Below are positions 3,050-37,864 of a stretch of DNA of 49,349 nucleotides, piece after piece. Position 1 is the first letter of the stretch; every line of letters begins with the position of its first letter. Source of the DNA: Acidimicrobiia bacterium (GTDB lineage: Bacteria; Actinomycetota; Acidimicrobiia; Acidimicrobiales; UBA8592). A program made the translations under genes and the position numbers. A model generated the notes under the pieces. That model was not told the origin of the DNA. It made no database searches and saw only the letters and a list, made by a program, of their open reading frames with translations. The stretch spans positions 1 to 49,349 of the forward strand of contig JAUIIS010000005.1 of NCBI GenBank assembly GCA_030431575.1, in the 5' to 3' direction.

Positions 3050-5797
3050 TCAACCCGTGTTGCGTAAGCCTGCAGCCACACCGTTGACGGTGAGCAACAG
3101 CGCTCGGCGCAGCCGTGCTTCTTCCTCTTCGCTAGCTCCCCGCCGAGAGCGGGCCAGCAGCTCCACCTGCAACACGTTGATCGGGTCAAGGTAGGCGTCG
3201 CGCACCATCAGCGTGCGATTCAAGACAGGCAAGTCGGCAAGGAGCTCCGATCCCGTTACTGCCGCGATCCCTTCGACTGTTCGGTCGAACTCTGCGGTCA
3301 CCGTGTCGAAGAAGTGATGCAACGAGGGGTCGACCAGGGTTGTGACGTAGTGGCGGGCGATCGCTAGGTCGGTCTTGGACAAGGTCATTTCCACATTCGA
3401 GATAAACGTGCGGAAGAACTGCCAGTCGTTGTACATCTCGGTGAGTTCTTCGGCATGGCCCGCGTCGATGGCGGCGCGCAGCGCCGTGCCCACCCCAAAC
3501 CAGCCGGGGATGATTTGGCGAGACTGCGTCCAGCCGAACACCCATGGGATGGCGCGAAGGTCCGCGATGCCGCTGCTGGAGTTTGCCCGCCGGGCAGGCC
3601 GCGAGCCGATGTTCATTTGGCCCAGCTCTTCTACCGGCGTGGATGTCTGGAAGTACTCGACCAGGCCGGGGGTTTCCAGAAATGACCGGTAGGTGTCGTA
3701 CGCGGTGGTGGACATCAGCTCCATGATGGCGCTGAAGGCCTCGCTCTTCTCGGGCGCGTGCCGGGGGTGGCGGTGGGCCAGCGAGGCCTCAATGAGTGCC
3801 GAGAACGCGAGGTCCAGATTTCGGTGAGCCAAGTCGGGAAGCCCGTACTTGTCGGCGATGACCTCGCCTTGCTCAGTGATCTTGACGCCGCCGTTCACCA
3901 CACCTGCGGGCTGGCCCAGGATGGACGCGTTGGTGGGGCCGCCGCCACGGCCTATGGTGCCGCCGCGGCCGTGGAAAACGATGATGCGAATGCCAGTGGC
4001 TTTGGACACTTCGGCAATCTGGCGGAGCGCCTTGTGGATCTCCCACTGCGAGGTAGTGATGCCGCCATCTTTGTTCGAGTCGGAGTAGCCAACCATGACC
4101 TCCTGGGTGTCGCCACGTAGCCGCAGCAAGTCGCGGTATGCCTCGTTGGCAAACAAGTCGCCGAGCACCGGCCCGATATTGCGCAGGTCGCCAATGGTCT
4201 CGAACAGGGGCACGAACCCGAGGCGGGCCACGCCTGCGGGGAGGTCAATGAGCCCAACGTCGCGGGCGAGCACTGCAGGCGCCAAGATGTCGTCGACGGC
4301 TTGGGTCATGGAGACGATGTAGCTTTCGACAACTTCGTCCCCGCTCTGGTCGAGGACGTCCCGCAGGGTTTGGAACAACGCCAGCGCGCCCGTAGAAGTG
4401 GAGTTGGGTGGTGCGAGGGGTCGTCGGCTGGCGAGTTCGGTAGTGAGGAGCGCGGTGCGTTCTGCGGAGGACATCGATGCGTAGTCGGTACCTAGGGCCC
4501 CGAACAGCTCGCTGAGTGCTTCGTGGTGCTTGGCTGCGTGCTGGCGGATATCGAGGACCGCTAGGTGGAAACCCACCATGGCGAGCGTGCGTCGCACCCG
4601 TGCCAGGCGGCCGTTGGCGAGGAGCTCGCCGTGGTTGGCCTGCAACGACCGCCCCATCATCGCCAGATCTTCTGCCAGCTCGCTTGGCCTGGTGTAGGCG
4701 CCTGGACCGGGTGGCGTCAGGGCCGCTTGTTGCACCCGATGGTGCATGACTGCGCAGCGTTGGCGGTAGGGCTCGCCTTCGCTGAGGCGGTCGAAGCGGT
4801 CGGTGATCTCGGGGAACGTCTCGCTGTCTTGGACGAGTTGCGCGGCTAGCTCATCTGAGATTTGGCTGACCACCGCGCTCACCGAGAGTTCGGAGGACAG
4901 GTCCTCGAGCTCGGTGGTGAGCAACCTGAGCGCTCGCCCACGTTGGAAGGCTAGAACCTCGCGGGTGGTGTCGGGGGTGACGTTTGGGTTGCCGTCACGA
5001 TCGCCGCCAACCCAGGACCCGAACTTGATGGGCGCTCGGTCGGGGTCGAGGCCACCACCCAACGAACCGAGGGTGGCATCGATGTCGTCGAGGAGTTCGG
5101 GCACCCCTTGCTCCATGATCTGCGTCAAGAAGTAGAGGATTGATCGGGCTTCGTCGACGGGGTTGGGTTGTTGGCGGCGAAGCTCGTCGGTCTGCCAGAT
5201 GGCGTCGATCAGCTCGTCGACCCGGCGGTCGATGCGCCTGCGGTCGGTGGCCGAGGCACTGCTTTCGTTGCGTCGTTCGATAAGGGTGGCAATCTCGGCC
5301 AGCTTGTCCAGGATGGAGCGCCGCGATGCCTCGGTGGGATGGGCGGTGAAGACCGGGCGCAGGTCTGCGTTTCGGGTGCTCGTGAGAATTTCGGTGTCGC
5401 TGATGCCCAGGCCTTGGAGCTTGGCAACGGTGTCGGCGAATCGGTTGTTCGACGCGGGCGCACTGGTGTTTAGGTCTTCCACCCGGTGCACCTGTTCGGC
5501 GGTGTTGGCCAGATGGAAGTACACGGTGAACGCTCGCACCAACCGGATGGCGTCGGGCAGGTCGATGTCTTTGAGGTATGCGGCCAGGTTCGAGCTGGTG
5601 TCGTCGTCGCGTCGCAGGCTTTGTGCGGTTGCGCGCACCTGTTCGACGCGGTCGAGGAGTTCTTGGCCGTGTTGACGGACCAGCGCATGGCCGAGTTGGG
5701 TGCCCAGGCGCCGGATGTCGTTGCGGAGAGCTGCGTCAAGCTGGCTGAGTTGTTCCTGATCCACGGTTGCAACGCTAGTGGCGACCCCACCCCGCAA
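3050..5797 (-). CDS. ppc: Phosphoenolpyruvate carboxylase
   Basis: 915 aa; TAHPTEASRRSI, GGDRDGNPNVT, VMVGYSDSNKDGG, FHGRGGTIGRGGGP motifs. Confidence 0.97.
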   Translation of the reverse strand: MRGGVATSVATVDQEQLSQLDAALRNDIRRLGTQLGHALVRQHGQELLDRVEQVRATAQSLRRDDDTSSNLAAYLKDIDLPDAIRLVRAFTVYFHLANTAEQVHRVEDLNTSAPASNNRFADTVAKLQGLGISDTEILTSTRNADLRPVFTAHPTEASRRSILDKLAEIATLIERRNESSASATDRRRIDRRVDELIDAIWQTDELRRQQPNPVDEARSILYFLTQIMEQGVPELLDDIDATLGSLGGGLDPDRAPIKFGSWVGGDRDGNPNVTPDTTREVLAFQRGRALRLLTTELEDLSSELSVSAVVSQISDELAAQLVQDSETFPEITDRFDRLSEGEPYRQRCAVMHHRVQQAALTPPGPGAYTRPSELAEDLAMMGRSLQANHGELLANGRLARVRRTLAMVGFHLAVLDIRQHAAKHHEALSELFGALGTDYASMSSAERTALLTTELASRRPLAPPNSTSTGALALFQTLRDVLDQSGDEVVESYIVSMTQAVDDILAPAVLARDVGLIDLPAGVARLGFVPLFETIGDLRNIGPVLGDLFANEAYRDLLRLRGDTQEVMVGYSDSNKDGGITTSQWEIHKALRQIAEVSKATGIRIIVFHGRGGTIGRGGGPTNASILGQPAGVVNGGVKITEQGEVIADKYGLPDLAHRNLDLAFSALIEASLAHRHPRHAPEKSEAFSAIMELMSTTAYDTYRSFLETPGLVEYFQTSTPVEELGQMNIGSRPARRANSSSGIADLRAIPWVFGWTQSRQIIPGWFGVGTALRAAIDAGHAEELTEMYNDWQFFRTFISNVEMTLSKTDLAIARHYVTTLVDPSLHHFFDTVTAEFDRTVEGIAAVTGSELLADLPVLNRTLMVRDAYLDPINVLQVELLARSRRGASEEEEARLRRALLLTVNGVAAGLRNTG

Positions 5798-34919: not shown

Positions 34920-36701
34920 ATGGGTTGGCCAATGAGCCCCGGCGTGGGCGACGACGACAAACTCGACATCGCGGGCACCTCCCAAGTGCTGCGCCGCAGC
35001 GCCAAGATGCTTGGCCCCTACCGCAAGCGTGCCGTGCTGGCCGCAGTCTTCTTGGTGGCATGGACCGCCATGCTCGTCGCCGGCCCGCTGCTGGTGCGAC
35101 GCGGCATCGACAGCGGACTCGAACAGAACGACGCCACCGCACTCAACACCTCGGTGGTGCTCTACATCGCCGCCGCCATCGCGTCCTACTGGTTCTACCG
35201 TCTCGCCGTGGTGAACCTAGCCATCGTGGGCGAAGGGTTCCTCCGAGATCTTCGCAATCGAGTGTTTGGCCGCATTCTCAAACACTCCATGCCGTTCTTC
35301 GACCGCAACAAGTCCGGCGTTCTCATCTCGCGCATGACCTCCGACGTCGACTCGCTGCAAGACCTCGTGCAAATGGGGCTGCTCATGTTTGTGAGCGCCG
35401 TCTTGTTGCTCACCGCCTCGGCCGTCACGCTGCTGTTGTTGAGCTGGAAACTGTTCCTGCTCTGCCTCGTCACCTTGCCACCCGTGGCCGCAGCATCGGT
35501 GAAGTTCCATCGAGACTCCAACAAAGCATTCCTGGCGGTCCGAGACTCGGTGGGCACCACGTTGTCCAGCCTCCAAGAAGGCATCAGCGGCGTCCGCATC
35601 GTCCAGGCCTTCGCCCGGGAATCCGCCGAAGCCGAAAAGTTCGCGGTCACCAACCGCCAGCTCTACCGGACGCACATGGATTCGGTGAAGGTGGCTGCCT
35701 GGTACCTGCCGGTGGTGGAGATCGCCGGTGCCATCACCACCGCCATTGCGTTGGGCGTTGGCGGGTGGCTCATTGTCGAAGGACAAGTAACCCTGGGCAC
35801 TGTCGCGGCGTTCATCTTGATCCTCCAAAGCATGTTTGGCCCCGTCCAGCAGCTCAGCCAACTGTTCAACCTGGTGCAGTCCGGCGCCGCCAGCCTCAAC
35901 AAGATCTACCAACTCCTCGACGAACCTCTTGAGCAACAAGACGACAATGCCTCGGTGCCTTTGCCCGCAGGCGGCGCCATCGAAGTGGACAACGTGGGCT
36001 TCAGCTACGTCGAGGGTGAGCCGGTGCTCGATGGCGTCTCGGTCACCATCCCGGCCAAAGAACGCATCGCGTTCGTCGGCCCAACCGGTGCAGGTAAGTC
36101 CACGCTGGCCAAGGTCATCGCCCGCTTCTACGACCCCACCGTTGGCGCAGTGCGGGTCGGCGGCGTAGATCTTCGAGAGGTCTCTCAAGACTCGTTGCGC
36201 TCGGGCATCGTGGTCGTGCCCCAAGAAGGCTTCCTCTTCGCTGGCACCGTCGCCGACAACATACGCCTCGCCCGCCCCGCGGCGTCCGACGCCGAGGTGC
36301 GCTCCGCCGTCGAACGCATCGGGGTGGCCCCCATCTTTGACGCCCTCCCCGATGGCCTCAACACCGAGGTTCGAGAACGCGGCACCCGCTTGTCCGCAGG
36401 CGAGAAACAGCTGGTGTCCCTTGCCCGAGCGGCCCTGGTGGACCCCGACATCTTGGTGTTGGACGAGGCCACCTCGAGCATCGACCCCGGCACCGAAGCC
36501 ATCGTCGAAGCCGCCATGGAAACCCTCATGCAGGCGCGCACGGTCATTGTCATCGCCCACCGCCTCTCCACCTCCGAACGCTGCGACCGCGTCGCCGTTA
36601 TCGATGCCGGCGGCATCACCGAACTGGGCACCCACGACGCCCTCATCACCCAAGGCGGCCACTACGCCGACCTCTACAATGCCTGGACCCAAGTGGTCTA
36701 A
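34920..36701 (+). CDS. ABC exporter half-transporter (TM plus ATPase), partner of the preceding gene
   Basis: GPTGAGKSTLAKVIARFYDP, LSAGEKQLVSLARAALVDPDILVLDEATSSIDPGTE. Confidence 0.95.
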   Translation: MGWPMSPGVGDDDKLDIAGTSQVLRRSAKMLGPYRKRAVLAAVFLVAWTAMLVAGPLLVRRGIDSGLEQNDATALNTSVVLYIAAAIASYWFYRLAVVNLAIVGEGFLRDLRNRVFGRILKHSMPFFDRNKSGVLISRMTSDVDSLQDLVQMGLLMFVSAVLLLTASAVTLLLLSWKLFLLCLVTLPPVAAASVKFHRDSNKAFLAVRDSVGTTLSSLQEGISGVRIVQAFARESAEAEKFAVTNRQLYRTHMDSVKVAAWYLPVVEIAGAITTAIALGVGGWLIVEGQVTLGTVAAFILILQSMFGPVQQLSQLFNLVQSGAASLNKIYQLLDEPLEQQDDNASVPLPAGGAIEVDNVGFSYVEGEPVLDGVSVTIPAKERIAFVGPTGAGKSTLAKVIARFYDPTVGAVRVGGVDLREVSQDSLRSGIVVVPQEGFLFAGTVADNIRLARPAASDAEVRSAVERIGVAPIFDALPDGLNTEVRERGTRLSAGEKQLVSLARAALVDPDILVLDEATSSIDPGTEAIVEAAMETLMQARTVIVIAHRLSTSERCDRVAVIDAGGITELGTHDALITQGGHYADLYNAWTQVV

Positions 36702-36793: not shown

Positions 36794-36876
36794 GGGGTCA
36801 GATGTGGTGCATTTCATTTCGTTGGTGGTTGGCGGGGGCGGCCTGTTGCGAAATGAAATGCACCACATCTGACCCC
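36794..36876. repeat. Perfect 28-bp inverted repeat with 27-nt loop
   Basis: ggggtcagatgtggtgcatttcatttcg (36794-36821) and cgaaatgaaatgcaccacatctgacccc (36849-36876). Confidence 0.95.
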
Positions 36877-36889
36877 ATTGGCAGGGCAG

Positions 36890-37864
36890 TTAGACGCCCA
36901 GGATGGTGGCAACCAGGGTGCGGGCCGCTTCGGCGGGGGAGACGTCGCGGTTGCCCGCTCTGGCCAGCAGGTCGGTGCCGGTGGCGCCCGACAGGGTGGC
37001 CTCGGCCTTGACGGCCAGTAACTGGTCGACCCGGTTCTTGACCTCCATGCGAAGTCGGCCGGCGCGGCGGGCTTCGAGCGTGTCGGTGTCGATGAGGTGT
37101 TGGTAGTGCGCCTGGACCGCTTCCCATACCTCGGGCGAGCCGGTGCCATCGAGCGCTGTGCTCATGATGATGGGGGGCCGGTAGCCGCTTTCGTCTTCTT
37201 GGCCGCTGACATGGCTGAGCTCCAGCATGAGCTCGAGGTCTCGGCGGGCATCGTTGGCACCGGGGCGGTCGGCCTTGTTCACAACAAACACATCGGCCAC
37301 CTCTAGCAGGCCAGCCTTGTTGGCTTGCACCGCGTCGCCCATTCCGGGGGTTACCACCACCACGGTGGTGTCGGCGGTACCGGCAACGTCGACCTCTACT
37401 TGGCCTACGCCCACGGTCTCGATGATTACGGGGTCAAAGCCAGCTGCATCGAAGAGCCTGACGGCGCCAGGGACGGCAAGCGCGAGGCCGCCGGAGTGGC
37501 CCCGGGTGGCCATGCTGCGAATGAATGCAGATTCGCCCGCGATGTCGTCCATGCGGATGCGGTCGCCCAAGATGGCGCCGCCGGTAAGGGGAGATGATGG
37601 GTCGACAGCCAGCACCGCTGGGCGCAGTCCCATCTGAGGCAACAGTCGAGTGAGCTGCCCCGTCAGCGTGGACTTGCCAGAGCCGGGAGCGCCCGTGATG
37701 CCGACGATGTGACCCTTGCCTGAGGCCGGGTGCGCTAGCTCGGTAATCTCGTCGGCTTCGGCTCCGCCACGCTCGACATGGGTGAGGAGGCGCCCTAGTG
37801 CCCGACGTTCGCCTTCTTGTGATCGTTCGAAGAGCTCTTCGAGGCTGGCGTGGCGAATGCTCAC
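36890..37864 (-). CDS. meaB: Methylmalonyl-CoA mutase-associated GTPase MeaB/ArgK family
   Basis: GITGAPGSGKSTLTGQLTRLL, AVDPSSPLTGGAILGDRIRM, IETVGVGQVEVDVAGTADTTVVV, VVNKADRPGA. Confidence 0.94.
   Translation of the reverse strand: MSIRHASLEELFERSQEGERRALGRLLTHVERGGAEADEITELAHPASGKGHIVGITGAPGSGKSTLTGQLTRLLPQMGLRPAVLAVDPSSPLTGGAILGDRIRMDDIAGESAFIRSMATRGHSGGLALAVPGAVRLFDAAGFDPVIIETVGVGQVEVDVAGTADTTVVVVTPGMGDAVQANKAGLLEVADVFVVNKADRPGANDARRDLELMLELSHVSGQEDESGYRPPIIMSTALDGTGSPEVWEAVQAHYQHLIDTDTLEARRAGRLRMEVKNRVDQLLAVKAEATLSGATGTDLLARAGNRDVSPAEAARTLVATILGV

Follow-up and report, generated by a model that had tools for sequence, protein, structure and literature searches.

A dispersed hairpin family in a genome of the Acidimicrobiales, best read as terminal-repeat dimers of a tyrosine transposase

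Structure and setting of the hairpin

The window is a stretch of 49,349 nucleotides from an Acidimicrobiia bacterium (GenBank assembly GCA_030431575.1, contig JAUIIS010000005.1, positions 1 to 49,349 of the forward strand). An MsbA-like ABC exporter gene (34920..36701, plus strand) and meaB, the gene for the methylmalonyl-CoA mutase-associated GTPase (36890..37864, minus strand), converge there on a complete hairpin unit of 83 bp (36794..36876), which lies 92 bp beyond the end of the exporter gene and 13 bp from the stop codon of meaB. The left arm (36794..36821, plus strand; 28 nt, GGGGTCAGATGTGGTGCATTTCATTTCG) is separated by a variable loop of 27 nt (36822..36848) from a right arm (36849..36876, minus strand) that is its exact reverse complement, so that the arms are 100% complementary over 28 nt. 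The perfect repeat with its 27-nt spacing, the convergent genes and the lack of a flanking T-tract had all been described in the first-pass annotation and were found again here: no T-tract directly followed either arm, and matches to the arm with up to 3 mismatches occurred at just two places in the window compared with 0.00 expected from shuffles, which excludes chance. Folded as RNA, the hairpin has a predicted energy of −68 kcal/mol (z = −9.9), and its position would be compatible with a hairpin in the RNA that affects the two converging transcripts, one of the roles proposed earlier. Rfam gave zero matches to the window. No inverted repeat of at least 12 nt was detected inside a single arm of the family to which the hairpin belongs (family I, below), and inspection of the arm by eye revealed no short palindrome either.

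Family I across the genome

The genome (4.17 Mb in 518 contigs, 83% complete) was scanned for both arms, allowing at most 3 mismatches in each. This returned 34 hairpins, designated family I, with the consensus arm GGGGTCGGGTGTGGTGCATTTCATTTCG, and a reversed-pattern control returned 0; the hairpin in the window is therefore not single-copy. All 34 had two arms, and only 2 unpaired arms were found (C388:3784 and C461:4156). Loops were 27–33 nt long, the end motif was GGGGTC[A/G]G, and the foot was GGGG, or GGTG in one copy. The copy in the window departs from the consensus at positions 7 and 9, in both arms alike. An assembly fold-back, which the first-pass annotation had named as a possible artefact, was excluded because the 34 copies lie on separate contigs and differ in loops and flanks.

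A 19-nt core of the arm was absent, at up to 1 mismatch, from the 396 other Acidimicrobiales genomes searched, and an exact scan of GTDB contigs with a 22-nt arm in the variant of the window gave zero matches. Among viral contigs there was one stretch resembling a single arm and no hairpin (IMG/VR contig L226:1558-1577, where 20 nt of the arm are matched and a hairpin partner is lacking). In the flanks of family I (e.g. L009, L034, L038, L043, L028 and L019) many copies adjoin further imperfect repeats at varying distances; these extend up to 150 bp, are about 75–90% identical and suggest mosaic interspersed repeats in intergenic DNA.

Conservation of arms and divergence of loops

Across the 34 hairpins, 15 of 1904 arm positions differed from the consensus (0.8% substituted), and pairwise identity of the loops was 55.5%, compared with 50.6% for shuffled loops. 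There were 10 distinct arm changes, 5 of which were matched in both arms where 0.016 would be expected if the arms changed independently; the copy in the window carried two of these, and C75, C421 and C440 one each. Matched changes of this kind may reflect selected pairing or the copying of one arm from the other, and the data fit both alike. The five one-sided changes were inspected for a bias towards wobble pairs, by which a constraint on RNA might be told from one on DNA, but their number is too small to tell. Invariant arms, diverged loops and matched changes together support the active maintenance suggested earlier. The recent origin offered beside it found no support, and family I shows no sign of a recent burst or of very recent copying, because even the most similar loops reach only 83% identity.

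Placement relative to genes

Gene context was taken from the calls of a purpose-built codon-score caller. All 34 hairpins lay outside called genes. At the 29 sites with both neighbours called, 13 gaps were convergent, 15 tandem and 1 divergent. For comparison, the hairpin sites were removed from the count of all gaps 90 bp or longer, and the remaining 44 comprised 8 convergent, 18 tandem and 18 divergent ones. Divergent gaps were thus depleted (1/29 vs 18/44, p = 0.0003) and convergent gaps enriched (13/29 vs 8/44, p = 0.02) among the hairpin sites, and at 12 of the 15 tandem sites the hairpin was closer to the 3′ end of the upstream gene. The first-pass annotation had proposed testing whether copies lie in intergenic convergent sites: all were intergenic, and convergent sites made up part of the set. 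The hairpins lie downstream of genes and keep away from the promoter regions between divergent genes, and they may affect mRNA 3′ ends; position alone is no proof of terminator function, because a published survey of REPs reported the same preference in placement for REPs generally.

Y1 transposase genes and family II

The first-pass annotation had proposed a search for a Y1 or RAYT transposase. A profile search of the genome with Y1_Tnp (PF01797) returned two genes of the Y1/HUH type and RAYT superfamily, one of them between family-I arms. This gene (L036:2410-3210, on C388, minus strand) encodes 266 aa with the HUH motif SNHFH and Y---NP, and sits between a full family-I copy (C388:2725-2812) and a single arm (C388:3784-3807). 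At L036:3269-3328 (C388:3768-3827) this single arm is edged by an 18-bp direct repeat, CGTTGGAAAGGTGTTGGG, a possible footprint of insertion or recombination. The second gene, on C476, encodes 310 aa with HUH and Y---NP, and has on either side a hairpin of another family, family II (L073:2182-2264 and 3294-3376; GGGGTCAGACCCTCAACGTT[T/G]ACCCC). Family II has about 15–20 dispersed copies in the genome, with less perfect arms, and has the end GGGGTCAG in common with family-I copies such as that in the window.

Both proteins carry N-H-[FY]-H and Y---NP and align over their length with relatives from many phyla. Their C-terminal extensions also align with these relatives, in 10 of 19 of which Bac_DnaA_C was found; no significant match to an HTH was obtained in the two proteins themselves. 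Both matched the NCBIfam model for REP-associated tyrosine transposases below its cut-off, and a sequence search of solved structures with both gave no match.

Similar hairpins in other genomes

The pattern GGGGTCAG-N50..80-CTGACCCC was scanned in 248 genomes of the order. Multi-copy GGGGTCAG hairpin families were found in G025 (64), G223 (11), G045 (6) and G129 (5), with at most 1 in controls; the arm sequence differed from family to family, and the loops were variable. Most single matches to the pattern, which had no longer arm similarity, are probably due to chance. A Y1 gene was present in 6/6 genomes with multiple hairpins and in 4/22 sampled genomes without hairpins, a comparison that is indicative only, the genomes having been hand-picked. 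At 25 of 62 related Y1 loci in other phyla the gene was flanked by inverted repeats with a score of 16 or more, compared with 0 in the shuffled control, and most of these repeats began (G)GGGTCA. Outside the order, dispersed hairpin families were also found in Desulfoscipio (14 hairpins in G403) and in a betaproteobacterium (21 in G405). The dispersed hairpins corresponded to the gene-flanking repeat in G129, G231, G160 and G403. In G025, G045 and G223 the dispersed family did not match the repeats beside the Y1 genes found.

Most of the listed hairpins among the 64 of G025, a genome of the same order, start GGGGTCAGGCACCTTC and have variable loops (e.g. L092, L109), and the repeat flanking the sole Y1 gene found there (L198) is a different one, a GGGGTCAG tandem repeat. 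At L202 (G160) a Y1 gene has clusters of GGGGACAGGCCCC repeats on both sides, a GGGGWSAS variant with a short palindrome of its own.

Comparison with known systems

Tyrosine transposases with flanking terminal inverted repeats (TIRs) were described as TIRYTs by Di Nocera 2013 (PMC3733652); the sequence GGGGWSAS is common to some of these TIRs, and some TIRs form moderately abundant dispersed families, often as dimers. Quentin 2018 (PMC6006769) places most TIRYTs in TnpA-Y1 subclass 2.1, with a C-terminal HTH or Bac_DnaA_C and without canonical REPs; in its abstract such subclasses are termed not REP-associated, and the equation of subclass 2.1 with TIRYTs is said to await confirmation by further analysis. 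The present elements resemble this system in having a Y1 HUH gene bordered by long inverted repeats of its own family (a hairpin and a single arm on C388, family-II hairpins on both sides on C476), an end motif that fits in some of the copies, dispersed families consisting largely of dimers, and a C-terminal HTH or Bac_DnaA_C in many relatives of their Y1 proteins. A start GGGGTCAG that fits GGGGWSAS is found in the copy of the window, the C75 copy and family II; the remaining family-I copies start GGGGTCGG (GGTGTCGG in C440), one or two positions off a motif that in the original paper covers some TIRs and not all. They differ in that the arms are new, that one genome holds two families, each with its own gene, and that long perfect arms enclose a nearly random spacer.

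REPINs, as described by Bertels and Rainey 2011 (PMC3116915), belong to classical RAYTs and combine inverted doublets with a less conserved spacer and compensatory changes. Family I shares with them the inverted doublet unit (34 doublets against 2 unpaired arms), conserved ends over a poorly conserved spacer, compensatory changes, extragenic location and a linked RAYT-type gene, whereas its ends lack the imperfect palindrome of a REP, it has no GTAG tag and its stem is the 28-bp arm itself. With classical GTAG REPs and BIMEs it has in common an extragenic position downstream of genes and the link to a transposase, but its foot does not fit GT[AG]G, its perfect stem is far longer and its copy number is low. 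A classical GTAG REP was rejected on the GGGG foot. Of the earlier suggestion of a REP/BIME-like or RAYT-mobilised palindrome, the dispersed extragenic copies and the Y1/RAYT-family gene with the same arms support the mobilised palindrome, and the classical GTAG form falls away with the end GGGGTC[A/G]G. Judged from these comparisons, family I is best read as a TIR dimer of a TIRYT that would be REPIN-like in its working; it is a new family of a class that is already known and thinly studied.

Discussion

The hairpin in the window is very probably one of the dispersed copies of a palindromic, non-autonomous element that would have been spread by a TIRYT. Its unit would consist of two inverted 28-bp terminal repeats, recognised by this HUH single-strand transposase akin to TnpA-REP/RAYT, and of a spacer almost free in sequence. 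When the DNA becomes single-stranded, as on the lagging strand, the arms may pair into a hairpin; the TIRYT would read its stem together with the GGGGTC[A/G]G foot, then nick and rejoin, so that the unit is copied or moved. Copies that had lost the arm sequence or its pairing would no longer spread, the loop would drift freely, and copies would survive mainly at harmless places downstream of genes. The paired copies, the contrast between arms and loops, the matched changes, the extragenic sites on the 3′ side of genes and the Y1 gene between repeats all back this reading, as do the second Y1 gene with its family-II hairpins, the fit of the end to GGGGWSAS in part of the copies, the inverted repeats flanking related Y1 genes, the dispersed hairpins that match such repeats in G129, G231, G160 and G403, and the co-occurrence of multiple hairpins with Y1 genes; recognition of the DNA by the TnpA protein is inferred. 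Counting against it are the family-I transposase gene with just a single arm on one of its sides, the absence of near-identical loops in family I, the dispersed families of G025, G045 and G223 that do not match the repeats beside the Y1 genes found, the lack of a sequence match to solved structures for both proteins and their scores below the NCBIfam cut-off.

The hairpins might instead be terminators or mRNA 3′-end hairpins selected by the host and kept for their function, with the link to the transposase incidental or a matter of origin only. The extragenic location of every copy, the depletion of divergent and enrichment of convergent gaps, the proximity to upstream 3′ ends at tandem sites and the highly stable RNA fold would all suit such a role, but the downstream T-tract is absent, 28 bp of invariant sequence exceeds what a terminator needs, REPs generally share the placement, and neither the Y1 gene between repeats nor a second family of the same kind is explained; we regard this account as unlikely, although it deserves to be kept in mind. 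Some REPs have been proposed to be bound by chromosomal proteins with a role in the nucleoid, in segregation or of the gyrase type, and conserved arms around a free spacer would also suit the binding site of such a protein acting as a dimer. Single arms, however, occur only in the vicinity of the transposase gene or of further copies, and the absence of the 19-nt core from the other genomes of the order argues against a conserved host role, which makes a site of this type improbable. Least probable of all is an ordinary MITE of a DDE transposase: the element is short, has terminal inverted repeats and contains no gene, but MITE families have common interiors, whereas here the interiors are nearly random and the ends invariant, and the matching gene encodes a Y1 HUH transposase.

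Beyond this genome, the chances seem evenly balanced that subclass 2.1 TIRYTs widely keep REPIN-like GGGGTCAG hairpin populations of their own across phyla, in which the transposase or arm conversion would keep the arms identical while the loop drifts.

For the TIRYT reading favoured here, likely cognate palindromes have been identified for two tyrosine transposases, and no report was found for this lineage. With invariant arms, near-random loops and one gene per family, the two families provide clean material on which the recognition specificity of subclass 2.1 transposases could be tested, and the hairpin in the window would be explained as a mobile repeat and not as a feature of the exporter gene or of meaB.
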